The notes beneath the pieces were generated by a model that was not told the DNA's origin, did not search any database, and saw only the letters and a program-made list of their open reading frames with translations. 64,000 bases of DNA from Hypomesus transpacificus (taxonomy: Eukaryota > Chordata > Actinopteri > Osmeriformes > Osmeridae). Below are positions 1,379 through 64,000 of the stretch, one piece after another (position 1 is the stretch's first letter; each line of letters begins with the position of its first letter). The DNA is taken from contig NC_061065.1 in assembly GCF_021917145.1 (NCBI RefSeq), positions 2,314,767-2,378,766 of the forward strand, given 5' to 3'. A program made the translations under genes and the position numbers.

Positions 1379-4300
1379 TTAATTGTTGTTCCTGTGTCGC
1401 TTAGAAACCTCGGGCCCCGCGTCCATGACGACAGGCCTCTTCAGAGCCCATTGGTCGTGATGTCTCTGTCCGCCGGGCACCTCAGTCTCTGATTCGCTGC
1501 TGGAGCTGCCGCTGCTGCTGCTGCTGTGGCTGTCTCCGCCGTTGAACTTGCCCCCTCCCCCCCCCCGCTCCCTCCTCTTCCCCTCCGCCTCCCCCGGCGC
1601 CTCCCTCTGAGCGTGGGGGGGTTCGGGCCTGCGCTCCAGCCAGGACTCCAGGGGGGTGTACTGGAGGACCGGGGGCTGGGGCTGGGGGGGGTGGAGCTGG
1701 GGTTGCAGCTGTTGGAGCAGGGGCTGGTTCTGGTCGTGGAGGTGGGGGTGTTGATACTGCAGGTGGTGCTCGTGGTGGGGCAGGAACTGCTGCTGGTGGT
1801 GTGGCTGCTCCACCAGCTGCTGCTGGAGATGCTGCTGCTGAAGATGATGCTGCTGTTGATGGTGCTGATGTTGTTGATGGTGGTGGTGCATCTCTGGGAG
1901 GTGCTGGTGCTGCTGGTGGTGGAGCAGGTCCAGGTGGTGGAGGTGGTGGAGATGGAGATGGTGGTGGTGGTTGCTGGATTCATCAGGACTGTGTTTGGGT
2001 TTCATCTTCAGAAATTTCTCAAATTTTATGGACGCTTTCTTGTTCACCACGAACCAGTCCTGAAAGAGAAAGACGACTCAGTGTTCCACGGCACTGAAAA
2101 TAGGGGACTAGGGAAAGATGGCTGTTGAGGGCAGCTTGCTGCTGACACTGTGCCTACCTGAGAGTGGACAGAGTTGATGTGGTACTTAACGCCACTCTCA
2201 GAGTTAAACTCCTTGTTGCAGATCAGGCACCGGTACTTCCCTGCCTCAAAGTCTCCCTGCAGGCACAGGGAGACAGGAAGACAGGGAGACAGGACAACAG
2301 GGAGACAGGACAACAGGACAACAGGAAGACAGGTAAGAATAGGCTGGTCTGGGCCAAATAAGAAAGCACAGAAACCAAGACTATGTTGTGCCTTCTACAA
2401 CAACAACAGAAAGAAAAAGCATTTCAAATGTCGAGTTTCAAAGAGTCCGTTGGTGCAAGAGTTTGTACAGCAACAATCTCAACTGTCATGCCGTGACAGC
2501 TGAACAGAACTGGAGGTGTGTGAGAGGAAGAGCGTACCCTGCAGCAGAGCCCCAGGTGAGCCTTGAGCCCGGACACACTGGTGTACACACAGTCACAGCC
2601 CTGGAGGATACGGCAAGGTAGTATTATTTCAGATTATTGTGTGTAGCATACAGATTATTGTGTAGCATACAGATTATTGTGTGTAGCATACAGATTATTG
2701 TGTGTAGCATACAGATTATCTGAAGATATTTAATCCTTCCTGGTTGTGGCATTATTTAAATAATTGTGTAATATCCAGTAAATGTAATGTATGTGTGTAC
2801 TCTAGCAGCCCCTCTTACCTGGTTGGGGCACTGAACCTGTGTGTAATGTAGCAGACCCTCTTACCTGGTTGGGGCACTGAACCTGTGTGTAATGTAGCAG
2901 CCCCTCTTACCTGGTTGGGGCACTGAACCTGTGTGTAATGTAGCAGACCCTCTTACCTGGTTGGGGCACTGAACCTGTGTGTAATGTAGCAGCCCCTCTT
3001 ACCTGGTTGGGGCACTGAACCTTCCTCTGCAGCTTCACCTCGTTCTTCCACTTCCTCAGCACCTCCTGGCTGAAGGACGGCAGGCCTGGGCGGGAGTACT
3101 TCAGCTGGGGAGACAACAGACCACTGAGGGGTGTGTTCGTGTGTGTGTGACCAACACACCACTGAGGGGTGTGTGTGTGTGTGTGTGACCAACACATCAC
3201 TGAGGGGTGTGTTCGTGTGTGTGTGACCAACACACCACTGAGGGGTGTGTGTGACCAACAGACAACTGAGGGGTGTGTTCGTGTGTGTGTGTGGTTGCAT
3301 GAGTACCGTGGCTCCGCCTCACCTTCCGGTCGTCAGGTACGAGGTCTCGGAGGAACTTCTTCTTGGGCCAGTCCTTTGACAGCTCGTCGTTGGCGATCTC
3401 CTGCAGGTGAAACACAGCCACCTGGGCGGACTGGCGCTGCACGCGCCCACTGTGGCTCCACTCTGCGTTGGGCTCCCGCTGGGCCTTCAGCCCCTCCTCA
3501 TCCTCCTCCACCGGCTGGGGCACCTGGGGGACACAGTGGGTCACACACACGCTGCCCCGACCGGGAGGGTCTTCCCTAACTCTGCTGGGTTACCTCTCAC
3601 ACCGTGTCAGGGTTAGGGAGGGGGTTTGATCATAGCTGTGATATGGAGGTATGTTCAGCAGTGAAGGAGTGAGGTGTGCAGTGTGGTGCTGGACTGACTG
3701 GAGCGTGTTCAGACTTGAGGTGGTATTCCAGACCAGCCTTGGACTTGTAGGCCTTGCCACAGTGACTGCAGTTTAACAGCAGCTTCTCCAGCTCAGACTC
3801 CTCCTTGCCACACTTCTTCATGTGGTACAGGTATCCCATAATGCTGGTGAAGCTGCCACTGCAGCCCTGCAGAGGAGACACGACCGTCACCACGGAGACA
3901 CGGCCGTCACCACGGTGACACAGGTGTCCCCACAGAGACACAGGCGTCACCATGGAGACATGGGACACTTCGGAATGGAACTCAGAACCGTTCCAGAAAG
4001 TCTGAATTCTCAAAACCAAGCTGTGCTAAGATATGGTTGGTGTACGAACCTCTTTGGAGCATTTTAATCGTCCGAGTCTCTTCAGAACCTTCCTCAGTTT
4101 CTCCTTCACCGACTGGTCATCCAGAGCAAGCCCGTCCCCTGGAGACGGCTGGCAACACAACAACCAGCACCCTTACACTGTATTCATTAAGCAGGTGCTG
4201 TCAGCGCCATACAGGTAGTACATACAGAACATACAGCAGAAAGTCAAGGATCAGAATGGCACAGTTTTGATTATTAGGTTGAAGAGAAAGCTAGTCATAT

Positions 4301-7300
4301 TCCCCTCCACCTGAGGCTGAGTTGCAGGTCCATCCTGATGGAGAGCGTTGTTCTTACCAAGTTGCTGTGGTCGGCCATGATGTGATACTTCATCCCAGTA
4401 GAAGACTTGAGCTGTTTCCCACAGTGCTGACAGGTGAAGGGGGTCTGAACAGGACAGGAACACACTCAGACACCACTGTACACTCCTGGCATACAGCCAA
4501 CAGATTGTGACAACTCCCCAAAACTTAACAGAATAAGCTAAACCCCAGTTCATCCACTTGCCAGCGGTCTATGAACAGGGCTAGGAGCCTAACCCTATGA
4601 ACCCATTTCAGTAATCTAGTGGACAATTTTGAACCAAAACGAACATACAAGTAGTGCATCTAGAAAGTAATGTGCTGTTCTTACCAGTCTGCAGGACTCC
4701 ATGTGCTTCTTCAGTCCCTCCACAGTCTTCCTGCTCACGCTCTTACACTTAGGGCACGTCACTCTGCCTTTATCCAGGATCTGCAGCTGCCAGCGCTCCT
4801 CCTGGCTGCCTGGAAAACAACCACCGCTCACTGTCTGGCGAGCTACAGCCTACCTAGCTACAGCCCGCCTAGCTACAGCCCGCCTAGCTACAGCCTACCT
4901 AGCTACAGCCCACCTAGCTACAGCCCACCTAGCCACAGCCCGCCTAGCTACAGCCGGCCTAGCTACAGCCCGCCTAGCTACAGCCTGCCTAGCTACAGCC
5001 CGCCTAGCTACAGCCCACCTGTACTGTTACTGTACGTTACTGTTGATCTCTCATCTGTCCATCATCGTATAAAGCCCGCCCTGACCATTTCGTTGGTCCG
5101 CCCAGATCCTGGTTTTATATAGTTTGTCCACAATACGAGACCCTCCAGACCCAACTTCCCGACCAAATTTTTTTGTGGGCGGGGCTACGTTGGGCTGGAA
5201 GCCAGGCTATAAGGAGGGTACAAAGGTGCCCCAATTTAACACACTTCTTGAGAGAAACGAGCTGAGGCAACTGAACAGTCATCTGAGCGGGATGACTGTT
5301 TTCGTAGCCAATATCAATAGAACGTCATCGATTAACTGGGTATTAGGGGGGGTAGCGGGCAATTTCCAGGAATGTCATTCTGACATTCTGATACGAGGGA
5401 GAATGGAACGTATTCAGAGATTACCACTAGGACCTTGAGCTGAGGCCCAGCCAGAGACAGAACAAACAGAGCACGTAGAAGGTCAATGTCTTGTCATAAA
5501 CTGACCAATCAAACTGTATAAAGATGTACTGAATATGCTCTCGCCAGAGTGATCTCCTTATGTATGATCTGAACTTATGCCAATAAAGCGCATTCTTGCA
5601 TACTGAACCTGAACCAAACTCTCCAAGCTTTATTCTCAAAAGACGCAGCCTGGGAACCTGAAACCGCCTTCCACAATAAGAAAACAGGTTTCCTGATCCC
5701 AAACTAAACTACCTCTGAATAAACAACACCATGGTGTCAGTCTGAAGGGCAGTGAGATGATGGGTCTCTGGAGGGCTTGAGGAAGGGGCCTCACAGGGCA
5801 TCCCAGACCTGGAGGTTCATCCACAGCTCATACCTGGAGGGTAGACAGGAGGCTCCTTCTTGGTTGAGAAGGAGATGGGAGTCTTGTTCTTGGGTTCCTC
5901 TGAAGGCTGGGATGGCGTTGGGCTGGCCTGGGAGAAGCTGCCACTAACCAGGCTGTTCTGGGAAAAGCCAGCAGCACCAGGAATGTTCTGGACGTAAGCA
6001 CTGGCAACCGGAGCTGGAACTATCATGAACAGGAAGACACATTTAGTAGAACAGTTAAATAAGAAAGCCGGATGAACAACTTATGAGGCACTGCAACCTT
6101 GCTGAGACAAACCGTGAAATATATATATTAAAAAAAAATATATGTATATTTTAATGCTGTGTTTATTTAGCAATGTTTTTATCCAGAGCGACATACAGTA
6201 CAGGGATGGGGGGATTCTAACCTGTGACCTCCTGATCTACAGTCACATGCTCTGCCACAGAGCTAAACCCTTCCCCAAATGGGAGAGGTTTTCAGAGAGG
6301 ATGAAATGAGTGACTAACCATTCAGTCTCACTTCAGAAGCGAAGCTAGTGACAGGTGCCGATCTTTCCATTTCTACTCTCGGCATTTTCTTCATGATGAA
6401 ATCTGAGAGACAACAGGACAGGTTAATTTGCAGTCGTTGTGAAGGGTGTGCGGACTTTCCCCCCAGTCTACAGCCCCCCTTCACTGCCTTCTGCACCCAT
6501 CATACCATACCCAGAGGGTGACTGATGAACCTGTACAGTAAGAAAGGTGCAGGACTGGGTAATGACGTAGTATATCATGCACTGCCTACCGTTCCTCCAG
6601 GCCTGGTCCTGCCCCCTGTCTCTCCCCTGGTCCAGGTGTGGGATGGGGCCAGGGATGGGGCCGGGGCCCAGGCTGAGGCTGGAACTGAGGCCAGGGCTGG
6701 GCCAGCAGTCTTTAGCCACCAGCCTAGGGGGCATCCTGGTCAGGGGCGGTGCAAAACCCCCCTCCATCCCATTGGCCAGGCTGGATGACATCACAGCGCA
6801 GCAGGAAGGGTCAGGGATAGGGTAGCCTACACCCACAGGGCCTGGAGTCACATTCTGCAGGTCTTCATACCTGAAGGAGAAAGTTACCCTGAAATCTGGA
6901 TACACACACAATATGCTCGCCCAGGGAGATGAACATTGGTTTGTCTGTAAGCAACAGTAAAAGAGAAAGCCGTTATGGTGAACTATATGACCATGTGCAG
7001 TGCTCGTCTTATGGATAACTCTACTATAGGTAGATGTTTCTATACGACGTGTGTTATTCTTCCAGTCTGAGCTGTTAGCAGAAAGAGAGGACATGGCTGT
7101 TTACCTTTTCCTCCCATAAGACCGTTTCATCTTCTGAGCTTCGAGGGCTTGAGCCTCGTCATTCTGAAACACGTGCAGAACAGTAACACAGTCTGGCGCG
7201 GCGTGCAGCTACACAGGCTGCTGCTACACAGGCTGCAGCTACACAGGCTGCAGCTACACAGGCTGCAGCTACACAGGCAAAACAGGGCAATGCTGCTGGG

Positions 7301-8009
7301 TGACTAGCGCATCTACCGCATCTCTAGGCTGATTAGTGTTGTGAACAGAAGCAGGTGTTTATGACTTGTCTGCTCCCACCTCCTCAGGAAGGGTTGGGTG
7401 AAGAGTAGAACTAAACATTGGAAGACACTGATGCATGCTGGCTAGACAGATTGATAATGTACTAAAGATGCCATAAACAAAACCAGAACACAGTTTAGAT
7501 CTGAAACACAGTGTTGTATTGAAGACAGTTACACCCAAAACATACAATTCTGTATTAGACACACAGTAGCTTAATTAAGCCCAGAGTATCTGAATTAAGC
7601 CCATAGTAGCTGTATCAAGGCTCACCCGGGGAAGTCCGATCACACTCATCTCAAACGACCTTTCAGGCATGCGCTGGACAACTGTTGAACAACAATAACA
7701 GCCCCCAATATTCAGTCACTGTACAAGTTCAACTAAAGCATAGTTAATCATTCACAATAACGTCTTCAATAATAAATATGCATAAATGCAGTAATAATGT
7801 CATGTATTCACTTTGCTGATGCCGCTAACCTAAGTGACACGCGGATGAGAATCTGCGACCTCGTGATCTGTAGTAAAAATGCTCTAACCACTGAGCTACC
7901 TCCCTCGCCTACCTGGATACGGAACGCTGCTCCTCTGTTGAGGCGGAGCGGTCTTCCTCTTCCTGGGAACGTACGAAGGCGACATGCCTCCCATGTAAGC
8001 TGGGTCCAT
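1379..8009 (-). CDS. znf512: Zinc finger protein 512-like, 15 coding exons, 795 aa
   Basis: Coding exons in transcript order: 8009-7913, 7681-7626, 7163-7105, 6870-6590, 6402-6319, 6019-5834, 4809-4685, 4444-4358, 4148-4050, 3866-3699, 3523-3323, 3104-3003, 2600-2538, 2256-2158, 2059-1379. All join in phase with GT-AG introns (796 codons including stop). Several atypical zinc fingers are visible: CPKC..HMESC (exon 7), CQHC..HIMADH (exon 8), [15 protein letters not shown] and [17 protein letters not shown] (exon 10), CPNQGCDC..HLGLC (exons 12-13) and [14 protein letters not shown] (exon 14). The run '[20 protein letters not shown]' and the terminal [14 protein letters not shown] match the ZNF512 family. 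The start at 8009 (MDPAYMGG) is the best in-frame ATG; an upstream noncoding exon is possible. The protein is over 200 residues longer than human ZNF512, because of extra N-terminal sequence and a His/Gln/Pro-rich last exon. The family is nuclear and presumed DNA-binding; the precise function is not evident from sequence. Confidence 0.9.
1440..1990 (-). repeat. znf512: Imperfect CAC/CAT/CAG triplet tract coding a His/Gln-rich tail
   Basis: The last znf512 exon carries a long run of His, Gln and Leu codons, followed by Pro/Gln, Gly and Ser-rich stretches. It reads as [13 protein letters not shown]-type sequence in the sense frame. Human ZNF512 has a basic, non-His-rich tail at this place. The tract stays open in the sense frame through to the stop at 1379, which supports real coding sequence. 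Confidence 0.8.
2260..2335. repeat. Short purine-rich tandem repeat (gggagacaggacaaca)
   Basis: Imperfect 10-16 bp units lie directly upstream of the exon-14 acceptor of znf512 on the minus strand. They form its pyrimidine-rich tract in sense orientation. Confidence 0.7.
2635..2722. repeat. 21-bp minisatellite, about 4 copies
   Basis: The unit 'acagattattgtgtgtagcat' type repeats four times in a znf512 intron, with one copy two bases shorter. Confidence 0.85.
2805..3002 (-). repeat. znf512: 46-bp minisatellite copying the znf512 exon-12 end and splice donor
   Basis: Four copies end at positions 2819, 2865, 2911 and 2957, and the real exon ends at 3003, an exact 46-bp spacing. Each copy keeps the last 20 bases of exon 12 (coding VQCPNQ) plus the GTAAGAG donor. 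Beyond the 20 bases the copies switch to 'gtgtgtaatgtagcag'-type sequence. Confidence 0.9.
3115..3300. repeat. GT-rich minisatellite in znf512 intron
   Basis: Five units of 'accactgaggggtgtgt' type alternate with (GT)n runs and 'gaccaacac'. Confidence 0.85.
4830..5025. repeat. 15-bp minisatellite (ctagctacagcccgc), about 13 copies
   Basis: It begins within about 25 bases of the znf512 exon-7 acceptor (exon edge at 4809). Units differ by single transitions. Confidence 0.9.
5026..5833. other. znf512 intron, no gene seen
   Basis: Unique or old repetitive sequence without recognisable exons. The short open frames here lack splice-site or family support. Confidence 0.5.
6140..6280 (-). repeat. 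tRNA-derived SINE remnant
   Basis: The reverse complement gives a tRNA-like head (TAGCTCTGTGGCAGAGCA, then GGTTAGAATCC as a B box). It is followed by a 'ccagagcgacatacagt' type tail like other fish SINE/L2 tails. It lies in a znf512 intron. Confidence 0.7.
7200..7285. repeat. 15-bp minisatellite (acacaggctgcagct)
   Basis: About five near-identical units in a znf512 intron. Confidence 0.85.
7812..7910 (-). repeat. tRNA-derived SINE next to the znf512 exon-1 donor
   Basis: The reverse complement contains GGTAGCTCAGTGGTTAGAGC (A-box-like, 7881-7900) and a degenerate B-box region with GAGGTCGCAGATTC. Its head starts about 10 bases inside the intron after the splice donor at 7912. Confidence 0.75.
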
Positions 8010-8946
8010 GGCTGTAGTTAGGCTGGAGTGGAGACTCGCAGAGCTGCACAACCGGACGGAAAGATAGCCTGGGTTAGCCAAGAAGAGTTTGGCCTTCAGG
8101 TATCAAGCTACGAATGATGAAGCCTCCATTTCAGGGGTACAGCCTACTATTATTTGGTATGGAACGATGGGTTATTTTAGTTTTGATAAGGGCATGCAGC
8201 TATGATTGCAATTTCTTCACTTGACAGATTATTTGCTATGGACTTCTAGCATTGTAGGCCACTGAAGCCTGTCCTGATGTCCACATACAATTAAGACAAC
8301 CTACAGACCCGTACATGAATTAAAGATGGGAAGGAAAGTGTACACAACTCGTAGCCAGATCAAGTCCTCGTGCTGTTCGTCTCGAAGGAGCAGACCTGTA
8401 CTTTACTGGGTTTGTGGTGTTACAGCAATGTATTCAGCAAAAGCCACGGTCATTGTCCGCGGATGGCCTCGCGAAAAAGGGGGGACGTTTGCAGACCGCC
8501 GACGCGTACGGTAAATCACTCTGCATAAGGCGACGTAAAATGTAACCGTTGTCCTGAATTCTTCACATAACACACACAGGCGCACTCACAATTATCCTAA
8601 ACCCACAACTGACTTGGTTTGTAACAGTAACTGTGAAATATGTACCCGTAGCATACCGTGTACCCTCCCCTTAGCAAGGTTAGCTAGTCTGCTCTGTATC
8701 TCCACCGATCACTTCCCTTTTGCCTTTACCCCGGCAATGATCCACCGAACCAGCCGTGGTTTTCGCAAGGCCAACGGCAGACGTGTTAGAAAACAACAGA
8801 ACGTCAACAATAGTATGTTAAAAATATGGAGTTATTCTCCATAAAAACACCAACAATTCTCCATACCCCTAATCATAATTACTTCATTCGCGAAACGCCC
8901 TCTTAGCAGCGAGAACAAATGAGCATGGCATCTAGTTCACGCCGTC

Positions 8947-8954
8947 TATAAAAG
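8947..8954 (+). promoter_or_regulatory. TATA-box-like element
   Basis: TATAAAAG followed by a GC-rich stretch, in plus orientation. No first exon could be assigned. It could serve an upstream noncoding exon of the gene at 10.3 kb, or be fortuitous. Confidence 0.35.
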
Positions 8955-9608
8955 GGGCGGTTCCTCGCACACAACCAGCGCAAACAGGTTTTTTGGGGAG
9001 GCCTCTTGAACAGATTACAGATCACTAGTTAATCTCAACTCTCTTCATATTGTTAACCAGATGTGCTATACTTTTAACTGATCCTGAGACAGGATCTAAT
9101 GTAGGCCTATGTATATATATATACATTATACATATATTACATTATATATATACATAAAACATCTTGAGCATCATAAAAATGCTGTAAATTATTATTACAA
9201 TTATTAAACTTAAATGTCCACGTTAATTTATATACACCCATTTCCGTTGGCTATATGCTCACAACAGTAATATTTCCGGGGTGAAATAGGCCAGGTCTAG
9301 AACTTCCAGTTAGACGTTAGAAAGTTTTTAACATTAGCAAGCCAAAACTCTTTCTAGCATGTGTATTGACAGGGAGAGCCTATAACCTGTCAGCTGTGTT
9401 GTCTATAATAATAAAAATAAATAAAAAATATCCAGTGAAATTAGTGATTTATTAGCATTGGGGTTTAACACATTTGCAAGGACTATATCGATGTCACATT
9501 CTCATTGGGGGCTGAGCCCCCCTAAAGGTCTGATCCTAGAGTGCAGGTACGAACAGGGCAGGTGCGAGGGGTCGGGACTTAGTTATAGGTCTATGGTTTA
9601 CTCAGAGT

Positions 9609-9620
9609 GAAAGTGAAAGT
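9609..9620 (+). promoter_or_regulatory. ISRE/IRF-element-like motif
   Basis: GAAAGTGAAAGT fits the GAAANNGAAANN core of interferon-stimulated response elements. It lies about 720 bases upstream of the start codon of the small tail-anchored gene. That gene has a splice acceptor at 10285-10286 in its 5' UTR, so a noncoding first exon near this motif is plausible. Function is inferred. Confidence 0.5.
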
Positions 9621-9954
9621 TACAATTTGAAAACAATTGCTTCGACACTCTTCAATGTAAACTCTACCTCCTCCATTCTGTCTTCTGGTAGCGAACAAAT
9701 CACATATCCAACTATCGAGTAAGAATACAATTTTATTATTTAAAAAAAACATAAATAGGCTATTATCTTATTTTTGGGGATAATAACCTGCTTAAAACTG
9801 TTGGTGATTTAGCACAGTGTTCAGTCGGTAGATTCTGCAGATAAACTGGTATTTACATTTTGAGATAAGCGCTCAAATAACTTGCAATGCAGTATGCTCG
9901 ATTGATGATACTGGGGTGCAAAAGACAGGGAATAACTAACAAAGACATAGCCTA

Positions 9955-10105
9955 CATTTATTCATTTAGCAGACGCTTGTATCCAAAGCGACTTCCAAGA
10001 GAGAGCTTTATATGATCATAACAACAAGATAGCCCCAAACATTGCGGGTAGCCAAAACATGAAGCATACATTGTGAAAAACCAAATGAGTGCCCAAGGGA
10101 AGAAC
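9955..10105. repeat. Dispersed repeat, same family as 23762-23865
   Basis: Shares 'catttagcagacgc', 'gcgacttccaagagagagctt' and 'gatcataacaacaagatagccccaaac'-type blocks in the same order with the copy at 23.76 kb. The start resembles the 3' tail of fish SINE/L2 elements. Confidence 0.75.
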
Positions 10106-10328
10106 CATAAGAGCATGTAGTTAAACAAGTTAGAATTTAACACAATTAACCTCAAAAGTGCAAGGGTGTACCTGTAGAAACAATGGTGAAGAAGCAACAA
10201 AACACAGGTGTGTTATAGTGAAAGAACAAACTAGATTTTTATATTTTTTATGAGATGTATTATTACAGAAGCATTTTCTTTCTCAGACGCAGAGAATACA
10301 ACTTTGCGATACATAAGGGATTTCAAAG

Positions 10329-11392
10329 ATGAAATTCTTGTTTGTAGTGACGGGTGAAACGCTACTGTGTCACCAGGAGGTCAACCGACATCTCAGCTCG
10401 ATGGGCTGGACGGAAGTGTATTACCCTGCAGACGGTGACGTTATCCTGGTTTACTGTCCCGTTGGGTCTCAGCTGGGGACTGACATTCAGGCAGCTCTGG
10501 AAAAAATTAGATGTAAATAATAAACATTTATAAATAATGCCTATAGTTAATCTTTCCAATCAGGTTTATATTATTTATCTATGTGCTTTACTATGCTAAA
10601 ATATATATTTCTCACTCCCTCTCTATATTTTTGCTCCCCTTCATCTCTCCTTCTATCTCTCCCCCCTCTCCCCTACAGCTGGTCTCCCTGTCATCCTGGT
10701 GGTCCTGCATCACACCTTCAGTCCAGCCTTCTGTGTTCCAGACAGCAGCAGATATGCCACCAAGGCGCTCTCCTTAACTGTGGACATGCTGTTCCATCAG
10801 AGCTGCGGGCTGCTGAGGTGCTCCACCAACGACATAGCAATTAAAAACATTTTGAATTGGGTACAGTAAAGATAATTAAATTAATTGATTTATCTTACAG
10901 TGTTATTTCCTGAAAATGCCAGAGGGGCTGACTAACATACAGTATAACAGTACAATTTTAATTTCATTTTAATATTGACCAAGATCAGTGCTTTTAAAAA
11001 GAGTGACAAAACTAACTCAAAATATTGATGTGTTGTGGTTGTAAATAATAAATATATAAGGATAAATGTTTTTCTTTATTCTTTTTCCCAGTACAAGATC
11101 AACAATGCCTCAAAAAATCATCTCATTCAACGTAGGTTGTTATTCACTCATGCTGTGATTGTCACCCATTGTAGAAGTAATCATGACTTGCCTGCAGTAT
11201 AAAGTAATACAGCCCTAGCAAACCCTAACTCTGAAGTCATGATCAGTTACTGAGACACCCTCTTGATAATATGCACTTCCCTTTTGTTTTACAGTGTTCC
11301 AGGTCTACGAAAGTGAAATCATCTTCACCCTGTTGTTCTTGTTGTTGCTGCTGATTTTTGGGGTCATAATGTATGGTGAGGAACTCTTCTAG
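10329..11392 (+). CDS. Unrecognised small protein with C-terminal membrane anchor, 4 coding exons, 167 aa
   Basis: Coding exons 10329-10512, 10679-10860, 11092-11131 and 11295-11392 join in phase (168 codons with stop). A 5' acceptor at 10285-10286 implies a noncoding first exon. The N-terminal part alternates hydrophobic strands and helices (MKFLFVVTGETLL; DVILVYCPVGSQLGTDIQAAL; LPVILVVLHHTFSP), suggesting a small Rossmann-like alpha/beta fold. The last exon encodes an uninterrupted hydrophobic segment (IIFTLLFLLLLLIFGVIMY) close to the C terminus, as in tail-anchored proteins. No signal peptide is evident. I recall similar uncharacterised fish proteins sharing the CPV.S..GTDI and VLHHTF motifs, but no named family. 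A GTGAGG donor at 11377 could splice to an acceptor at about 11720 and change the last residues. The upstream GAAAGTGAAAGT motif hints at interferon control. Function is unknown. Confidence 0.75.
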
Positions 11393-13021
11393 ATGATGTG
11401 GAGCACCCACAGAAGTTCACCCCAGGTCCTCTGCTGCACGTCTTCCTGTCTACCTTAAAATGTCTAAAAGTATGAAAATGATCTATAAAACATCCTTTAA
11501 AAAAACTTTTAAAAGGCTTTTTACTGACCAAAAATTGTATTTACATATTTACCACAGTTTAACAGCTTTGAATTGTGTTTAGTGGGTACGCTAACATGTT
11601 TGGTAAATCACATGACAGTACAAGACCACACATAGGACTGTAACTATGGGTTGACAAAAAATAAAATGAATGAACATAAAACTTGAATTATTTAATTTAT
11701 GAATGTATTTCTTTTTTCAGATGTATAGTGACTATTTTCATCAGGAAGTTAGCAAGATATTGTCAAATTTATTGAATTAATTTGATGCTTACAAATATGA
11801 TAATTCACACAAAAAACACACACTCAAGACAATGATAAAATACATCTGTTTACGTTTATGTCACACAACATTGTAATGAGAAACAGCTTTGCTTCGCCAG
11901 GGCAATGAATCAAAAACGAAAAGCGCATAACAAGTTAACACAGGGTGGCGCTGTTTGAGCGTAAACGAGCACTTAGACGGTATTATATGGCCGCTGCTTG
12001 AGGTAGGTTGACAGGTCAGATATCTCCAGCTAAAAAATGTTATTGGTGGAATTCAGTGGTGCTGTATATTTTACGAAATGCTCTTTTTTATATGTATGTA
12101 GTTGGTGGTGATGCTCAATAGATTAACTTAAGTATACATCACCAGCTAAATACAAGACGGCCATCGTTTTGCTACCTAGCGACATCACTGCCCATTGTTT
12201 TGGTTTGCACTGCAGACGGAGGACCTAGTGGTGGACCTTGTTCTCCAGACTGTAGCTAGCAAATATGTGCTGATCAAGCAAGTGTGTAGCAAAAAGAAAT
12301 ATTTGCAGCTGCAGATTCTATAGTTTCCATTGAGATATCGTGGTGCATCCTTCCTGTACATGACGGTGCCGCTATATCGAAAGGTAAAGCGTTAGCAGAT
12401 TACAGTAGGTGCTGCACGTAACTATAGTATTAGTACTAGCTACGAACTTCAATGGATATGGACCTGTTTTACTGATCGGCTGTCTTGATCACCATCTGTC
12501 TATTGTTGGAAACACTGGTTCGTACATACCGCTAATTGTTTTAGCTCGCTAGTAGCTGTTAGCTTTGAACAACAAATTGTACTATTGCTAACAATACTGT
12601 AGCTAAACTAGCAACCGAAATGTTTCATTAGACTGTATGTGTGGTTTTAAACGTTATATGTAGTGACAGACGATCATACGTGCCATGTGTCATTTCTAAT
12701 TGCGGGGAAACTTGGAAAAGCCCTCATCACTTCATCATTCAGGATTCCTAGGATCAATACCGTGCGGCCCCCGTGGTTTCAACTATCATCACCGTTTTCC
12801 GGGGTTTATTGTGCTGGTAATAGACAGAGCGTCCACCACTACGCCATCAATTTCATTTACGCAGTTTTCCGTCCCCTCCCCTCTCCATTAGGGTACGGAA
12901 GTGTAGGAGCTCCGCGTGAGAGGGAACAGAGTGCATATCACCACATAACTGCTCCCTGCTCTCCTGGGTGTGTGTGGGACAACTGCATGCGGCGTTAACA
13001 CACCACACACACACCCCACAG
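11393..13021 (+). other. 3' UTR of the small gene, intergenic sequence and ncoa7 5' region
   Basis: A polyadenylation signal AATAAA lies at 11660-11665, about 270 bases after the stop. From about 12.0 kb the sequence is the presumed ncoa7 promoter and 5' UTR. No other exon was identified. Confidence 0.55.
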
Positions 13022-21075
<8,054 letters not shown>

Positions 21076-31417: not shown

Positions 31418-33043
31418 ATCCAGTAAGGCCCACTCCTCCCAGCGGGGGAGGGGGTGAGCGAGCGGAGGGGGGGCAGGGAGAGTCGCCCCTCTTCTACCGA
31501 GAGCTGTGGTTCATCTGTGTGATGGCGGGTGTGGCCCTGCTCCTCCTGGCCCTCATCCTGGCCCTCATCCTCCACAAGGCCCTGAACAAGCCCCCCTTCA
31601 CCCGAGAGCGCCCCCCTCTGGCTGCCTTGCCCCTGCAGAAGAGGATCCCCATGGTGGTAACCCCTCACTCCCACCTGAGGAAGCACCTCACACCTGGAAA
31701 GCACACCTGTAATGTGAAAACCTTACAAGCTGCTTGACAAACTCACTCTTCTTACAGTTTGAAACGGTGCCTGATACGACAAACGCTTCCAACAGCGTCA
31801 CTCTCAAAGGGTTCACTATGCATCTAGAGGTGAGACATACACACACCTACTTGTAAACACAGACCATTCCTTGACCCTGACCACTGAAATACTGTTAGAA
31901 CTCTCCACATCTGATCCTTGATCTTCTGCTGTACTTTCTAGTTGCACTGTTTTAATGTTGCTTTTGGATGACTGCTTCTGCTGAATGAATAGCTACAATG
32001 TGGATGTAAAAATGTACCTGGTAACTATGCGTCTAAGTGTAACTGTGTACCTGTGAAGGGGGTACAGTACCTGGTAACTATGAGTCTCTGTGTACCTGTG
32101 AAGGGGGTACTGGACAGCAAGCTGGGGCCGGGAGGAGACGGACCTGCGGAGGCAGACCTGGGGATCTTCAGCGTGTCCTCTCTCTATGCCGTGCCCCCGG
32201 ACCCTTCACAGAATTCCCTGCGGCGCAGCGTGAGCCAGCTGATAGACAGGAAGTCCCTGACGGAGGACGAGGAAGTGTGGGACCCCCACGTCCACGGACA
32301 CGACAGCGGGATGGTGAGTCATGAACAACTACACCTGCTATCCACACATAGCTAGCTAATACCTGAACACCTGCTATCCATGCATAGCTAGTTAGTACCT
32401 GAATACCTGCTATCAACACATAGCTAGTTAGTACCTGAATACCTGCTATCAACACATAGCTAGCTAGTACCTGAACACCTGCTATCAACACATAGTTAGC
32501 TAGTACCTGAATACCTGCTATCAACACATAGCTAGCTAGTACCTGAACACCTGCTATCAACACATAGCTAGCTAATACCTTAACACCTGCTATCCACACA
32601 TAGCTAGCTAGTACCAGAATACTTGCTATCAACACATAGCTAGCACCTGGATACCTGCGTGCTAATCAAGTGATGAAGCTAGAAGACTAGAAAAACCCTG
32701 TAGGCTACGTTGCTTTGGACAAAACAGTTGGAAAAACATAAATACTTTTCCATTGATTGTAATGAACAATTTGCACGGTCAGAACTTTACACAACATGAT
32801 TTATAGGATTACAGTTACAGTAGATCCCACACTACATATGGATACTGTATAGTGTATAAAAAAACAGATTCTGTCTTTGACTGGATATGATGCATCTGAT
32901 CAAGTATCAAACTGACCCAGATCATCTTCCGGTCGTTCTGTTCCCCATGTCAGTTCATGGAGGACGAGGAGTTTGTCGACACGATCAAAGGCTTCAGCAC
33001 AGTGAGGAAGGAGCACACCATGTTTACCGACACTAACCTTTGA
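31418..33043 (+). CDS. Usherin-like transmembrane and cytoplasmic tail (4 exons, 5' end unresolved)
   Basis: Exons 31418-31656, 31758-31829, 32104-32313 and 32954-33043 join in phase to a stop at 33041. A juxtamembrane FYRELWF is followed by a hydrophobic span (GVALLLLALILALILHKAL), then ERPPLAALPLQKR. The tail has SLRRSVSQLIDRKSL, GHDSGM and EDEEFVDTIKGFSTVRKEHT, and ends in the PDZ ligand DTNL. Human USH2A shares FYRELWF, RERPPLVPLQKRM, LHRSVSQLMD, GHNSGL and a terminal DTHL. In usherin this tail binds whirlin and harmonin at the stereocilia ankle links and photoreceptor periciliary membrane. The large extracellular region is not visible upstream, where cenpw and hint3 lie. Either this is a tail-only paralogue or partial duplicate, or the ectodomain exons lie beyond these genes. 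Exon coordinates are a minimal model and the start codon is not defined. Confidence 0.75.
31850..31995. repeat. Dispersed repeat, copy 1 of a three-copy family
   Basis: Shares 'ccttgaccctgaccactgaa', 'tactgttagaac' and 'atcttctgctgtactttct' with the copies at 43.1 and 49.65 kb. A SINE-like 3' tail ('ggatgactgcttctgctgaa') follows. Confidence 0.7.
32010..32110 (+). repeat. 45-bp duplication spanning the acceptor of usherin-like exon 3
   Basis: 'tgtacctgtgaagggggtac' occurs at 32046 and again at 32091, where it includes the acceptor AG (32102-32103) and the first exon bases. The surrounding 'acctggtaactatg' is duplicated too. Confidence 0.8.
32320..32650. repeat. 36-38-bp minisatellite, about 9 copies
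   Basis: Unit 'tagctagtacctgaatacct' plus 'gctatcaacacatagc', in the last intron of the usherin-like gene. Confidence 0.9.
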
Positions 33044-40841: not shown

Positions 40842-41691
40842 TCCGTACCTGCTGGTCTCTCAGGTTGAGTGTGGGGAGGTGGAGAGAGCGTGTGTGAGAT
40901 GTCCTCCAGTCCACAGGCATCACGTTGCCATAGTTATCAGTCAGCGCGTTCCACACCCTGGAAGAGGAGTAGAGAGGAGGAAGAGAGAGGGAGGAGATGG
41001 AGTAGAGAGAGGAGGAAGAGAGAGGGAGGAGATGGAGTAGAGAGAGGAGGAAGAGAGAGGGAGGAGATGGAGTAGAGAGAGGAGGAAGAGAGAGGGAGGA
41101 GATGGCGTAGAGAGAGGAGGAAGAGAGAGGGAGGAGATGGAGTAGAGAGAGGAGGAAGAGAGAGGGAGGAGATGGCGTAGAGAGAGGAGGAAGAGAGAGG
41201 GAGGAGATGGAGTAGAGAGAGGAGGAAGAGAGAGGGAGGAGATGGAGTAGAGAGAGGAGGAAGAGAGAGGGAGGAGATGGAGTAGAGAAAGGAGGAAGAG
41301 AGAGGGAGATGGAGTAGAGAGAGGAGGAAGAGAGAGGGAGGAGATGGAGTAGAGAGAGGAGGAAGAGAGAGGGGGGAGATGGAGTAGAGAAAGGAGGAAG
41401 AGAGAGGGAGATGGAGTAGAGAGAGGAGGAAGAGAGAGGGAGGAGATGGAGTAGAGAGAGGAGGAAGAGGGATCAGCGGGGATGACAGGTGATACTAGAA
41501 GTCTCTGCTCAGACAAAATGCAGATCTCTCTCTCACTACCGCCCACTCTGGTGCTACATGTGAAGATGGGTCTGTGTGGAAGAGAAGAGTACGAGCCTGT
41601 GAGTGTGTGTTCCTGACCCCCTGGTACTGCGGACACTGTGAGGACGACCCTGGGAGCCTGCGTGTCAAAAACACTTCTAATCAAATGGATG

Positions 41692-42086: not shown

Positions 42087-42129
<43 letters not shown>

Positions 42130-42499: not shown

Positions 42500-42531
<32 letters not shown>

Positions 42532-44359: not shown

Positions 44360-44930
44360 GACTGCCGTAGGACACCGTTGGATTTTGTCCTCCCCGTTCA
44401 GCTGCTAGACGGTGTTGTTCATCGGTGTTGGACAAGAATCGAAAAACAGCAGAGCAAAAAGGGGGCGGATCCTTCAAGCTGACGTGACGTGCGAGAATCC
44501 TTCCCATTCCCAGGAGAACAGATGCCATAAATCCTAACATCTCCAATATAGAAAATGTATCTTAACTTGAATACATATAATATATATATTTTTTAAAGTG
44601 GACTATTTTCACCCACTTCTAAAAGCTCTCCATCATCAAAGATTTCCAATGTAAATAACTTTTACACATGAATCACCCTCCCCGCTAGTTAGTAGGGTTA
44701 GGATACTAGTAGGGTAGGGCCATGCAGGGCAGGATAGGGCAGAGTAGTGTGTTGGTAGTGTAGGTTAAGGGTAGAGTTATGGTAGGGGTAGCATAGGGTG
44801 CGGTAGGGGTAATTAAGGGTAGTGTAGGGGTAGCTTGGGCCAGGTGGTTCAGGGCAGGGGTAGTTTAGGGGTGCCGAGTTGAGCTCACTTCTGGACATCC
44901 TCACGGGCCACATCTCTTTTCAAAACCCTG
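44360..44930. other. fez2 promoter side and wdr26 downstream flank
   Basis: Presumed fez2 5' UTR and promoter close to 44.36-44.55 kb. A 'ggtagggtagtgt'-type loose repeat lies at 44690-44870. No gene was seen. Confidence 0.5.
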
Positions 44931-44935
44931 AAAGC

Positions 44936-46345: not shown

Positions 46346-46384
<39 letters not shown>

Positions 46385-47447: not shown

Positions 47448-47485
<38 letters not shown>

Positions 47486-47936
47486 CAGGTGAAAGAGATG
47501 CTCCGCAGACCGCAGGTGTGAGATGGGTGCGTGGAGGTGGATCAGGGGAAGGACTCAGGCCTTGAGGCCTGGAAAAGAGATGCCTCTGCAGGGTTAGGGT
47601 TGGAGAGGACAGTCCCTGGAGCAGCTGGAGCCGGAGGGCCGGCTGGGGGAGGAGAGGGAGGCCGGCGAGGCTGAATGTGGGAGGGGGGTCCTGGTCTCGT
47701 GGAGGGGTGCGGGGGGGGGGGGGGGCTGGTTCAGGATGAACACCCTGCTTGTCTAAGAGTGCGTTCGCCCTCACCTCCAGAGTTTCTCCAGGTCAAGAGA
47801 CTCAACTACTTTGCGTTTCTGTTTGTCTTTTTTTACTTGGTTGTTTTTTCTCTTGTTGGATTTTGTTGCTAGTTGGGATGTTTGTGTTTCTGTCATTGTT
47901 GTTGAAGTGAAGGAGTCTTCTGTTCCAAAGTCACCA
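44936..47936 (-). other. wdr26: wdr26 3' UTR
   Basis: A minus-strand AATAAA (TTTATT at 44936-44941) marks a likely end, giving a 3' UTR of about 3 kb. It includes poly-C at 45041-45062, GT repeats at 46317-46410 and 46890-46920, a poly-G run at 46990-47012 and a CA run at 47450. The open frame at 47771-47980 overlaps the wdr26 stop and is not a separate gene. Confidence 0.55.
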
Positions 47937-59227
<11,291 letters not shown>

Positions 59228-59700
59228 GTTGCTGCTAAGGTTGTTGACGATGCTTCGGTTAAAGTGAATAGCAGAGCTGGCTTGAGAGTGAAGTGAAGAT
59301 GTAGCAAGTCCGAGAACAACTCCAGACAGGCCCAACACAACTGTTGAAGCCCCGGGCTCTCCTGCTCCCTCCGCCGCCGAGGCTCGGTGTTTCTTCCGCG
59401 GGGGCGGCGACGCTCCGCCGGTGTCCGAGTCGGAGGAGGAGGAAGCGGAGGCCAGAGTTTCCTCACCGAGAGCGGCCGTGGTTAGAAGCCGGCGAAGCCC
59501 CGGGTGGGAAAGGAGGTTTCAGCTCCCCGGATTCAGACCTCGTAACCCGGCTTGAACGCGCTGACACTGTAGAAGCCCCGTCAGTCGTCCCGTTTTTGTT
59601 GTTGTTTCTGTCAAAACAGCTGCAACCCCCTAATGGAGTCCAGACACGCTGACGTAACCGGAAATTCCTACACTACCCACTTCCGGGTAGAATTATATAA
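59228..59700 (-). promoter_or_regulatory. wdr26: wdr26 5' UTR and GC-rich promoter region
   Basis: GC- and CpG-rich stretch (59300-59530) just upstream of the start codon, as in CpG-island promoters. It ends within about 110 bases of the adcy3-like polyadenylation signal. Confidence 0.5.
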
Positions 59701-59746
59701 TCCATAAAGTGGCGCATAAGAAGCAATTTTGCATATTGGTAACAAT

Positions 59747-60932
59747 TTTATTAGAGCAATCAATGTAAACATTAACATTTGCGACACAATGTACTAGAGT
59801 CACGTATTTTTTCTAAAATTCTAAACATTTTATACAAAAAAAAGAACATTCTAAAAACGTTTTTCTTAGAAAGGCATTATGTGACAACATAATTCCCGAT
59901 AATTTCCTAGTGCCTCAGAAAGGAATCACTGCTTCAGAATGGACATCAGCGATGACAGCGAATAGTGCACTTACCTAAAGCAAGAGTGTTGACCATAAGA
60001 TACTTATGCTGCCATCTCTGATAATCAACCTACATTCTTTAAACTTTATCAAGGATTAAATGAAGTATGTCTTCCTTTCTAAAATAGGATTTAGGACGAG
60101 AAAGAGTTTTTAATGGCCTACTCTTGTCCTAGATCTGTAAAGACCAATTCAGAGAGCAAAGAGGACATTCAGGGGCCAAAAGCAGGACTGCAACTGAACG
60201 TTAAATTAAAAACAACGAACCATTTAAGGCAAACATTTTTAATAACTGAATAATAAATAAATTATGCATAACCTAAAATAGTACAGAACCTGAGCTCCAC
60301 AGTTTGAAATAAATGAATATGGCAGATAATATCTCTTACTGTTTGAAAATCCTAGCGCTGACCTGGAGAGAATAGAGAATATTGATAATCTTGCAGTTCT
60401 ATGAAATAATTCTTGACGTTGATGTATCTATTCTTGCTGATATACTCAGTGTTCAAAGTCTTCAGATGCTTACTGTGTTAGTTCTTACCTTGACTACGCT
60501 AGTTCTAGATGTATAAAAGTTGTGTAACTAGACTTGTGGGTGGATGATTTCATATTGATATACATTTTTTGATTTTTCTCAAACAGTTAGTAATGATCTT
60601 ACAAAACCCCTCTCTGTTATACGTCTGCACCACTCAAATTTCTTGAAACGTTTCTGATCACTAGGGGATTAAATAATGGAGATTTATCAAAAATCAATAA
60701 CACTTTTGCAAAGATTCGTTGGAATCAAGACCAGGATTTATGAGTAGAGCGATGTGTGAGTATGAACTTTACGGGTTTTGAAGTTACATTTTTAAACCAT
60801 GTCAGTGTCCAGAAACAGGACACACAGAGCTAACAATAGCTTAATGATGTCTATGTATAAACATATTTGTCTGAGAGAGTAAAATGTTGGTATTTTTACA
60901 GAAAAAAACATGATTTGTTAATGTATTTCTTG
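59747..60932 (-). other. adcy3-like 3' UTR
   Basis: AT-rich, following the cyclase stop codon. A minus-strand AATAAA (TTTATT at 59747-59752) is the likely end. Confidence 0.55.
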
Positions 60933-63900
60933 TCAGGACCGCTCCAGGACTTGGTGTGGGAGGGTGGTGGTGGTGGTTGTGTTCGTCTGTTTGTCTTTTC
61001 CCTTCATGAAGAAGGTTAGCAGCTCCCCCTTCCCTTTCACGAAGATCGGCCCCCTGCGGACGAAACGGAAGCCGTACTCCTTCAGGATGTCGTAGCAGTC
61101 CTCCACCACCTGGGGGCAGCACAGCAGTGTGTGTTACCTGTATGTTCCCCATCAACCCGGTAGAACCTGTATGTGTGTGTGTGTTACCTGGATGTTCCCC
61201 ATCACCCCAGTAGGACCTGTATGTGTGTGTGTGTTACCTGGATGTTCCCCATCACCCCAGTAGAACCTGTATGTGTGTGTGTGTGTTACCTGGATGTTCC
61301 CCATCACCCCAGTAGAACCTGTATGTGTGTGTGTTACCTGGATGTTCCCCATCACCCCAGTAGACTCCATCCTGCTCGCCACATTCACTGCGTTTCCCCA
61401 GATGTCGTAGTGAGGCTTCCGGGCGCCGATCACCCCCGCCAGCACTGGCCCTTTATTCAGCCCTGCAGAGGAGAGACACATGAAACACCCACACACTCAC
61501 ACACACACTCACACACACACTCACAGGCCGTACTGACCGATGCGGAGCATGAAGTTGTTGAAGGACTGGCTGTTGAGGTTGGCCAGCGTGACCTTCATGG
61601 CCAGAGCGAAGTCTGCCAGGGCGGCCAGGTGCATCCAGCGCTCCAACAACACCTGGTCCTCCAGCTAGGACACAGGAGGTCTTCATCATTATCATCATCA
61701 TCATTATCATTATCCTCCATCCTTGCGGTTGCTGTAGTCATGGTTACCTTGCGGTTGCTGTAGTCATGGTTACCTTGCGGTTGCTGTAGCCGTTGGTGTT
61801 GCTCTCGGGAGAGACGCCCGAAGCGGCCATGTAGGTGCTGCCGATCGTCTTGATTTTAGTGATGCACAGAAACTCAGACCTGTCCAGTAACTAGCATACA
61901 CAGAAACTTAGACCTGTCCAGTAACTAGCATACACAGAAACTTAGACCTGTCCATTAACTAGCATACACAGAAACTCAGACCTGTCCAGTAACTAGCATA
62001 CACAGAAACTCAGACCTGTCCAGTAACTAGCATACACAGAAACTCAGACCTGTCCAGTAACTAGCATACACAGAAACTCAGACCTGTCCAGTAACTAGCA
62101 TACACAGAAACTTAGACCTGTCCAGTAACTAGCATACACAGAAACTCAGACCTGTCCAGTAACTAGCATACACAGAAACTTAGACCTGTCCAGTAACTAG
62201 CACACACAGAAACTCAGACCTGTCCAGTAACTAGCATACACAGAAACTTAGACCTGTCCAGTAACTAGCACATACACACACACACACAAAGGAACTTAAA
62301 CCTGTCTAGTAACTAACACACACAGAAACTCAGACCTGTCCAGTAACTAGCACATACACACACACACACACACAAAGGAACTTAAACCTGTCCAGTAACT
62401 AGCACACACAGAAACTCAGACCTGTCCAGTAACTAGCACACACAGAAACTCAGACCTGTCCAGTAACTAGCACACACAGAAACTCAGACCTGTCTAGTAA
62501 CTAACACACACACACACTTGACTCACGCTGTCGAAGTCAGAGATGATCTCGTTGAGGATTCGGAGGCACTCGATGCCCCCGTTGTTGATGCCCTCCTCCG
62601 TGTAGAAGTCTGAGAAGTTGGGGATGGAGGCAAACATCACCCCGATCTCATCGTACGACTGGCTGTACAGCTCCTGGACACCAGAGGGCACAAGCTTTCA
62701 CCGTCTCATCTGCCTCAAGAACACGTAATCCCTCTTCCCCCCTCACCTCACCTCACATGCCCTCCCCTTTCACCCTCATCTCACCTCACATGCCCTGCCC
62801 TTTCATCCCCCCCTCACCTCGTCTCTCTTCTTGGTACCCAGGAAGTGTTTGGCCACATGTTCAGGCAGCATGTTGGTGACCAGGGCCTCGTTACGTTCCC
62901 TCATGTCCAGCACCTGCTCCTTCTGCTCTTGCACCCCGATCCTCCACAGGAACATCCTGCGAGACTGCCTCTCCACCTGAGGGGCGGGGCGTACATTTTA
63001 TCACGGACAACAGTGCAACCTGTGATCCGTGATAAAATAAAGCAGATTCATTATTTACCCTATAAATCGGACGCTGTGTGTGTGTGTGTATCAAGACGAT
63101 GAGGACTCACATGCCGGGAAAAGTAGTAGAAGCTGATCATCATGATGATGATCATGACGGTCATCAGATACCTGGAGGGGATCACAGACGTACTGAGGAG
63201 ACAGAGAGGAAGGACATCTTAAGAGTTGAGTCAAACTAAAAGAATTATATATAAATAAATAAAAAGCTGATAAAATATTAGGAAAGCAACCAATTCCACT
63301 CTCCGATTTGGTTACTTTAAACTGTGCCTGGTAGCTGAGATGTTACTTTACACTGTGCCTGGTAGCTGAGATGTTACTTTACACTGTGTTTGGTAACTGA
63401 GATGTGGTTACTTTACACTGTGTCTGGTAACTGAGATGTGGTTACTTTACACTGTGCCTGGTAGCTGAGATGTTACTTTACACTGTGTCTGGTAACTGAG
63501 ATGTGGTTACTTTACACTGTGTCTGGTAGCTGAGATGTGGTTACTTTAAACTGTGCCTGGTAGCTGAGATGTTACTTTACACTGTGCCTGGTAGCTGAGA
63601 TGTTACTTTACACTGTGTTTGGTAACTGAGATGTGGTTACTTTACACTGTGTCTGGTAGCTGAGATGTGGTTACTTTACACTGTGTCTGGTAGCTGAGAT
63701 GTGGTTACTTTACACTGTGTCTGGTAGCTGAGATGTGGTTACTTTACACTGTGTTTGGTAACTGAGATGTGGTTACTTTACACTGTGTCTGGTAACTGAG
63801 ATGTGGTTACTTTACACTGTGTCTGGTAGCTGAGATGTGGTTACTTTACACTGCGTCTGGTAACTGAGATGTGGTAAATTTACACTGTGTCTGGTATAAG

Positions 63901-64000
63901 CTGCACAGACTGGCATTAAATAAACGCTGTGAAGGACGTGGACTCCTCTAACCTGGAGAACAGCATGATGTCATACTCTCACCTGGAGAACAGCATGATG
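60933..64000 (-). CDS. adcy3: Adenylate cyclase type 3-like, C2 catalytic part (partial, 8 exons visible)
   Basis: Exons in transcript order: 64000(partial)-63983, 63192-63111, 62976-62818, 62673-62527, 61890-61774, 61664-61538, 61462-61338, 61109-60933. All are in phase. IMLFSS and [19 protein letters not shown] are the final membrane segment. [19 protein letters not shown] precedes the C2 domain. The C2 domain has [69 protein letters not shown] and [20 protein letters not shown] (the D..WG..VN..SRM core for ATP and forskolin-type contacts). It ends [20 protein letters not shown] and a short Thr-rich tail. [10 protein letters not shown] and EEYGFRF-like sequence with [11 protein letters not shown] favour ADCY3, the olfactory and ciliary cAMP producer, over ADCY1/8. 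The C1 half is off the window. Four of the exon edges are copied in adjoining tandem repeats. Confidence 0.9.
61130..61337 (-). repeat. adcy3: About 50-bp minisatellite copying a cyclase exon end and donor
   Basis: Exon-end copies begin at 61138, 61188, 61238 and 61290; the real one is at 61338. Each keeps up to 27 exon bases (coding STGVMGNIQ) and the GTAACAC donor, separated by (GT)n and 'agaacctgtat'. Confidence 0.93.
61724..61773 (-). repeat. adcy3: 26-bp repeat copying a cyclase exon end and donor
   Basis: 'gcggttgctgtag' recurs at 61725, 61751 and 61777, the last being the real exon (coding YSNRK, edge 61774). Each copy is followed by the GTAACC donor. Confidence 0.92.
61891..62515 (-). 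repeat. adcy3: 34-bp minisatellite copying a cyclase exon start and acceptor, about 18 copies
   Basis: Each unit contains 24 bases of the exon start (sense TTACTGGACAGGTCTGAGTT.., coding LLDRSEFL) plus the CTAG acceptor. A few units are interrupted by (CA)n. The array runs from the real acceptor (exon edge 61890) back almost to the preceding exon's donor at 62526. Confidence 0.93.
63295..63895. repeat. 32-37-bp minisatellite, about 17 copies
   Basis: Unit 'ggttactttacactgtgtct' plus 'ggtagctgagatgt', with length variants lacking 'ggtta'. It lies in a cyclase intron. Confidence 0.93.
63951..63982 (-). repeat. adcy3: 30-bp duplicate of a cyclase exon end and donor
   Basis: 'acctggagaacagcatgatg' occurs at 63951 and 63981. 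The second has a GTGAGAG donor and the first a GTTAGAG donor, so either could define the exon end. The true exon is taken to be the outer (right) copy. Confidence 0.8.

Follow-up and report, generated by a model that had tools for sequence, protein, structure and literature searches.

Within a 64,000-nucleotide stretch of the Hypomesus transpacificus genome (contig NC_061065.1, positions 2,314,767 to 2,378,766; hereafter the window), six tandem arrays in three genes, znf512, wdr26 and an adcy3-like adenylyl cyclase gene, are built from a unit that joins the edge of an exon to its GT donor or AG acceptor, and in a wider sample of the genome tandem arrays crowd the intron side of splice junctions. 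This crowding, a secondary point in the initial annotation of the window, is the strongest regularity in the data. The spanning arrays have the build of the mirage minisatellites described in amphioxus, and we think it probable, if by a modest measure, that the arrays reported here arose in the mirage manner: by a tandem duplication that straddled or abutted a junction and then expanded head to tail into the intron, with the resulting ladder of splice-site copies being tolerated.

The initial annotation had proposed for znf512, wdr26 and the adcy3-like gene that an exon edge with the adjoining GT or AG serves as the repeat unit. Reading of the sequence bore this out for all six arrays (Table 1). 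Five of them are rows in the output of Tandem Repeats Finder (TRF) for the window, and the sixth, at the window end, becomes a TRF row once the flank is included. What had appeared there as a pair of copies at 63951 is the tail of an array of about 27 copies that runs past the window end (CCAG/GTGAGAG, with 24 coding bases and the real donor at 64731/64732; here and below a slash marks the junction, and positions above 64000 continue the window scale). For the 34-bp acceptor array the best-scoring TRF row has a 68-bp period and 9.7 copies. The intron at 61110-61337, between the last two exons of the adcy3-like gene, is nearly all 50-bp exon-edge array and, minus that array, is shorter than nearly all array-free introns sampled. 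Beyond the window we found five further junction-spanning arrays in further genes, so that the claim of several unrelated genes holds and extends to other parts of the genome.

Comparison with solved structures, made for wdr26 and the adcy3-like gene, indicates that the exon-proximal copy is the one required for the conserved protein. When the exons are joined at this copy, WDR26 is, across the junction QFYQC/DLDG, identical to the solved protein and free of gaps (PDB 8qbn chain 7), and the cyclase aligns gap-free over DFDS/LLDRSEF and GNIQ/VVED. The remaining copies had been predicted to form a ladder of decoy sites, and for the most part they do: in ten arrays most decoy copies score equal to the real site (on a generic vertebrate splice matrix, not trained on this species), the 30-bp adcy3-like array holding about 20 equally good donors, while the myosin array (L007) is an exception. 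The prediction does not extend to every copy, since six donor-like copies of the 30-bp array carry GTTAGAG, with a lower score, and the GT is gone from the final copy of the 26-bp adcy3-like array. Just 2 of the 66 donor decoys in eight donor arrays keep an open frame, both of them in the 50-bp adcy3-like array (the test covered the nine donor arrays, of which L007 gave no decoy); use of a donor decoy would therefore almost always break the protein.

The frequency of such arrays was measured in a sample of 341 kb of the 437-Mb genome, comprising 53 stretches with 745 predicted splice junctions. Besides the window it took in 100 kb of flank and 60 loci, chosen irrespective of repeats as those around the strongest Pfam hits for the myosin head and for cyclase domains; one of the loci (L056) lies inside the window. 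Exons were predicted with codon usage from 68 Pfam-supported segments and with splice matrices, tandem repeats being masked. The initial finder over-predicted tiny intronic exons, and a stricter version, retrained once before the final predictions, was used instead; exons that scored high or were backed by Pfam were kept. By hand, and after a first look at the results, we removed 27 exon calls without clear gene identity from the region of the window (contig C6), several of which had arrays across or beside them, so that counts were lowered, and added the exons of L044 and L052, which the predictor had missed and which both carry spanning arrays, so that the spanning count was raised. Two classes of array were counted, strict (a period of 20 or more, 2.5 copies or more and matches of 80% or above; n=100) and loose (period at least 10; n=254); the strict class was chosen when the loose counts were already partly known. 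An array was called spanning if it covered at least 5 bp on both sides of a predicted junction, and adjacent if its edge lay in the first 20 bp of the intron, counted from 4 bp inside the exon. Expected numbers come from a permutation in which each array was collapsed to one unit and the units were placed randomly in the same sequences 4000 times.

Eleven strict arrays span a junction, against 4.0 expected (2.8-fold, p=0.002), and the excess is at donors only (9 against 2.0). Outside the window there are 6 against 2.5 (p=0.03); one of the six has its start inside the window and belongs to the original finding, leaving five. The crowding beside junctions is larger: 65 loose array edges are adjacent to a junction where 12.7 are expected (5-fold) and 25 strict ones where 4.2 are expected, and the corresponding numbers outside the window are 39 against 9.4 and 13 against 2.8. 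None of these four numbers was reached in any of the 4000 permutations. At 21-35 bp from the junction, 16 loose edges were found against 7.5 expected (p=0.004), and at 36-200 bp 68 against 73.6 (analytic profile, period-10 rows summed). The five arrays that the initial annotation had listed as starting close to junctions lie 2 to 13 bp from them.

Saturation of short introns was rejected as the cause of the adjacent excess, which persists once the count is limited to introns whose unique sequence reaches 150 bases: these hold 35 array edges at 0-20 bp, and edges per bp amount to 0.0056 at 0-5 bp and 0.0034 at 6-20 bp against 0.0003-0.0010 deeper in the same introns. As a further control we used decoy sites, splice-like sequences at least 120 bp from confident exons, and counted arrays within 20 bp; these sites share the score threshold of the real junctions and not their score distribution. 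For loose arrays and a score of at least 3, an array lies beside 21 of 70 real acceptors against 68 of 1747 decoys, and beside 14 of 57 real donors against 41 of 1050 decoys, in the C6 region; at the other loci the counts are 10/121 against 13/606 for acceptors and 8/129 against 3/357 for donors. Decoys thus adjoin arrays four- to eightfold less often than real junctions. With the threshold raised to 4.5 the C6 region gave 17/53 against 26/591 for acceptors and 6/38 against 10/281 for donors, and donors at the other loci 3/89 against 0/112; with the acceptors of the other loci included, decoys are 2.6 to 7 times less often beside an array where they have any. Strict arrays at a score of at least 3 gave 8/70 against 29/1858 (acceptors) and 8/58 against 21/1203 (donors) in the C6 region, and 5/51 against 6/315 for acceptors elsewhere. 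The weaker crowding at decoys indicates that the exon edge matters, and not the motif alone.

The same control bears on the idea that splice-signal sequence is itself the seed, pyrimidine tracts and GT-rich donors being simple sequence that would slip more easily. In long introns, 10 of the 24 acceptor-adjacent arrays indeed have a sense strand that is 75% pyrimidine or more, and at array-free junctions the first 20 bp hold 6-mers that recur nearby about 1.4 times as often. Yet in introns of this kind arrays more than 35 bp from acceptors are pyrimidine-rich as often (7 of 14), a 1.4-fold enrichment falls far short of the 5-fold crowding, and the decoys carry the motif with four to eight times fewer arrays; we consider seeding by the signal sequence highly unlikely. 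An artefact of the gene finder was rejected as well. In an unmasked re-prediction, restricted to exons overlapping the confident masked set, the rates are similar (C6 region: acceptors 16/63 and donors 14/55 against decoys 74/1906 and 48/1160; other loci: acceptors 9/112 and donors 9/116 against decoys 15/741 and 3/449), and 385 of 419 confident exons are identical in the two runs. Assembly may have played some part in the copy numbers, which may be wrong in a repeat-rich flank that is incompletely assembled, with runs of N of 500, 4437 and 1063 bases in L032, L035 and L036. That the assembler made the arrays, as false tandem copies at difficult places, is an explanation to which we give next to no credence: the copies differ by substitutions, the arrays lie on several contigs, and an assembler has no reason to prefer exon edges.

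Several results and features of the sample weigh against the reading of the arrays as mirages born at junctions. Acceptors show no excess of strict spanning arrays (2 against 2.1). Loose arrays spanning a junction are in no significant excess either, with 11 against 8.2 (p=0.2) overall and 6 against 5.8 outside the window. The L044 and L052 exons were added after their arrays were known; without both, a first analytic count gave 9 against 3.8 for strict arrays, and 7 against 2.5 at 90% matches or more. An earlier form of the permutation without hand-added exons gave 9 spanning arrays against 8.4, 7.7 and 6.9 (p=0.46, 0.36 and 0.24) at period thresholds of 10, 15 and 20. Four of the 11 strict spanning arrays lie in one gene, and the permutation p-values flatter the evidence because arrays are treated as independent. 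The TRF overlap of the L007 array with its exon is only 8 bp, its inner copies have lost the donor, and no decoy was found in it. In the decoy-site control the contrast shrinks for acceptors at the other loci at a score of at least 4.5 (7/94 against 6/211), and strict arrays there adjoin 0 of 53 real donors against 1 of 188 decoys, so beyond the C6 region the donor signal depends on the loose class. The junctions are predictions rather than transcript-supported sites, and some are wrong: an acceptor in wdr26 was off by 17 residues and a donor in adcy3 by 9 bases, these two being a minimum. All counts come from one assembly of one species.

Chance overlap is a rival reading: in a genome very rich in minisatellites some units must straddle exon edges, and tandem repeats make up 26% of the 164-kb stretch around the window (C6:2264767-2428690). 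By permutation, pure chance is rejected for the adjacent and the strict spanning arrays, and is not rejected for the loose spanning arrays. The strict excess, with its 9 donors against 2.0, and an adjacent excess that is present inside and outside the window make chance a clearly unlikely explanation of the whole. The suggestion of the initial annotation that junctions may be preferred seeds is partly supported: in the 341-kb sample strict spanning and adjacent arrays exceed random placement, and loose spanning ones do not.

A different origin for the crowding would be a pile-up, in which arrays are born anywhere in introns and end up directly beyond the splice signals, either because unconstrained spacer is deleted or because arrays on the exon side are harder to delete. 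Of 71 introns with arrays, 22 retain under 70 unique bases, whereas 4 of 233 introns without arrays are so short; the difference is owed in part to the founding unit, which was included in the array. The small crowding at unconstrained decoy motifs, and an adjacent signal far stronger than the spanning one, also fit such a process. A pile-up gives no account of exon sequence in every copy of a unit, the adjacent signal persists in long introns, and array edges are scattered over 0-20 bp, entering the acceptor tract, with no fixed stop. Nor are adjacent arrays older than interior ones by copy identity (median match 86 against 87.5%), so that longer survival of arrays beside exons is unsupported by this measure. 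We rate the pile-up as rather unlikely overall. For the spanning arrays we favour birth at the edge, since their units contain exon sequence; for the adjacent arrays, preferential birth and pile-up against a constrained edge both remain as readings.

In birth at the edge, the founding unit of a tandem duplication would straddle or abut the exon–intron junction, and growth would then proceed head to tail into the intron. Small tandem duplications may be born preferentially near junctions, through replication or break repair, those entering the exon being partly removed by selection, and splicing would tolerate the ladder through use of the exon-proximal copy. A stronger version, in which junctions are true hotspots of tandem duplication, a window of a few tens of bases being several times likelier than other intron sequence to found a minisatellite and the exon edge rather than the motif alone being the cause, is a possibility that we regard with some doubt. 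Transcription, co-transcriptional splicing, exon nucleosomes, non-B DNA and break repair are candidate causes of such a hotspot.

Copies are more alike in strict spanning arrays than in interior ones (median match 96 against 87.5%, p=0.04; in the class with period of at least 15, 96 against 88%, p=0.07), which is what young arrays with a tendency to be lost would show, and the high copy identity in most spanning arrays suggests recent turnover. The cyclase gene in L051, by eye an adcy3 paralogue, has identical exon limits (127 and 125 bp) and no copied edge at the donor that matches the site of the 50-bp adcy3-like array; in the simplest reading this array arose after the gene duplication and the intron predates it. 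Two lesser duplicates in the window are as the initial annotation described them, one diverged copy in ncoa7 (20282) and one extra copy in the usherin-like gene (32046/32091). At 20109-20330 the intronic ncoa7 copy lies in an open frame with the TLDc exon, and the predictor fused the two; an in-frame longer TLDc exon is conceivable.

Table 1. Junction-spanning and junction-adjacent arrays, with related duplicates (coordinates on the window scale unless given otherwise; slash, junction)
Feature	Coordinates	Strand	Unit x copies	Details
Window	G000:C6:2314767-2378766			genome 437 Mb, 376 contigs
znf512 donor array	2792-3022	-	46 bp x 5.0	VQCPNQ/GTAAGAG; 20 coding bases; real donor 3002/3003
wdr26 donor array	50626-50797	-	32 bp x 5.4	24 coding bases + GTGAGTAT; real donor 50773/50774
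adcy3-like donor array	61127-61364	-	50 bp x 4.8	MGNIQ/GTAACA; 27 coding bases; real donor 61337/61338
adcy3-like donor array	61721-61789	-	26 bp x 2.7	NRK/GTAACC; 16 coding bases; real donor 61773/61774
adcy3-like acceptor array	61865-62519	-	34-bp unit (8 intron + 26 coding bases)	TAG/TTACTGGACAGG; real acceptor 61890/61891
adcy3-like donor array	63946-64755	-	30 bp x 27.0	63946-64000 inside window; ends in L032
enah EVH1 exon donor array	77649-77883		11.9 copies	CACCAG/GTGAGG; 6 exon bases
L052 adenylyl cyclase donor array			34 bp x 18	
L044 guanylyl cyclase donor array			44 bp x 6	
L042 cyclase acceptor array			30 bp x 3.3	7 exon bases
L007 myosin donor array			28 bp x 10	8 exon bases
ncoa7 intronic copy of TLDc exon end	20282-20336 (approximate limits)	+	single copy	old, diverged, with own donor; sequence, TLD domain
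usherin-like copies at acceptor	32016-32111 (approximate limits)	+	two copies of ~45 bp	exon predicted 32104-32313
wdr26 adjacent array	48081-48246	-	29 bp x 5.7	11 bp from donor; TRF
wdr26 adjacent array	53133-53476	-	49 bp x 7	begins 2 bp into intron from donor; TRF
wdr26 adjacent array	54206-54320	-		pyrimidine-rich (sense strand); ends 2 bp from acceptor; TRF
wdr26 adjacent array	55745-56859	-	17 bp x 67	pyrimidine-rich; ends 5 bp from acceptor; TRF
fez2 adjacent array	40971-41469	-	35 bp x 14	pyrimidine-rich; ends 13 bp from acceptor; TRF
ncoa7 adjacent array	17044-17556	+	25 bp x 21	ends 3 bp from acceptor; TRF
ncoa7 adjacent array	20342-20502	+		CT-rich; occupies most of an intron; 4 bp from acceptor; TRF
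znf512 adjacent array	3114-3250	-	38 bp x 3.6	9 bp from acceptor; exon also bears donor array; TRF

TRF reports 123 rows for the window. Pyrimidine-rich arrays of up to 1.1 kb form or adjoin acceptor tracts at 54206-54320, 55745-56859, 49103-49150, 40971-41469 and 20342-20502. The window contains znf512, ncoa7, hint3, usherin-like, fez2, wdr26 and adcy3-like genes or parts of them, flanked by gtf3c2-, slc30a- and uckl1-like genes on one side and by enah on the other. Pfam matches stand behind several of these names (ZNF512, TLD for ncoa7, FEZ, WH1 for enah, uridine kinase and cation efflux), the name WDR26 comes from the PDB match given above (E 2.8e-231), and adenylyl cyclase likewise from a PDB match; an NCBIfam search with one znf512 piece gave no match. 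We take the cyclase gene to be adcy3 rather than another cyclase; hint3, whose sole Pfam match is DcpS_C, and the usherin-like and gtf3c2 genes are presumed identities as well. Exon predictions at 71147-71507 (L032) and 74802-74910 (L033) on the window scale resemble remnants of transposable elements when judged by eye, being reverse-transcriptase-like and Tc1-transposase-like.

The window region lies toward a contig end, where the sampled loci are denser in repeats. The farther a locus lies from the contig end, the lower its tandem-repeat density tends to be (rho -0.45, p=0.002, 44 loci on contigs longer than 7 Mb; cyclase loci only, rho -0.51, p=0.01, 24 loci); the density reaches 42% less than 3 Mb from an end, being high in many such loci, and is at most 5.5% beyond 3 Mb. 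Clusters of myosin heads on C8 and C10 are almost without repeats. Human meiotic break repair is reported to make side-by-side duplications (PMC7615360), and the gradient would fit both this and the known instability of minisatellites near telomeres. Among the sampled matches, one pair on C101 (G000:C101:134203-134523 and 149702-150022) and one on C13 (G000:C13:1428337 and 1432623) are equal in score and spacing, which suggests recent tandem gene duplications or assembly duplicates.

The mirages that we found in print are case reports from amphioxus; here such arrays are frequent enough to be counted and measured in a vertebrate. This allows them to be dated against relatives, and allows one to ask how splicing picks one of about 20 equal donors, with a bearing on how splice boundaries move and introns grow. 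At junctions of this kind, short-read annotation and variant calls may mislead. Should the excess hold genome-wide, it would point to a mutational process tied to exon edges.

Repeats in fish introns have been described before. In the sea bream, the introns of the growth hormone (GH) and myostatin-2 genes carry polymorphic repeats, and one myostatin-2 allele adds a predicted acceptor; the likeness lies in repeats within fish introns, and the accessible portion of that paper does not describe repeats that contain exon edges (PMC3045353). A literature search that covered few subscription papers recognised no edge-spanning arrays in fish, nor any study in which minisatellites were measured to be in excess at junctions. 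In human segmental duplications, internal tandem repeats at exon–intron boundaries include minisatellites of about 30 bp and may provide alternative splice sites; they came to light because recent paralogues differ in them, and transcripts gave evidence of altered introns (PMC2812944), whereas here no new intron is seen and the evidence is that of the sequence. In the Rogers model of intron gain, for which potato RdRp is a case, a tandem duplication that crosses an intron–exon boundary copies the splice signals, as in the arrays described here (PMC4974935). Unlike in that model, no new intron appeared at the sites compared: L051 shares the exon limits around the 50-bp array, and there is no insertion at the aligned ADCY and WDR26 junctions.

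The closest likeness is to the amphioxus mirages, and the build of our arrays matches the published ones, so that the kind is already known. In two reports (PMC3087553, PMC3902484), mirages are described in Adh3, the globins BflGb6 and BflGb9, PGBD5 and troponin C, as repeats across 5' or 3' exon–intron boundaries, many with AG/GT in the unit, that leave the reading of the gene unaffected; the arrays there are reported to be unstable in length and somatically polymorphic, with splicing normal by RT-PCR. The arrays in Hypomesus share with them a unit that spans the boundary (in 11 strict arrays, by 5 bp or more to either side of a predicted junction), AG/GT signals in the copies (most copies of ten arrays), the involvement of both kinds of boundary (9 donors and 2 acceptors) and a normal protein obtained through the exon-proximal copy, gap-free over three junctions in WDR26 and the cyclase. 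They differ from the amphioxus cases, so far as these are described there, in their vertebrate host, in their number (11 strict arrays in 341 kb, four of them in one gene, with units of 20-50 bp), and in the measured excess of arrays beside junctions.

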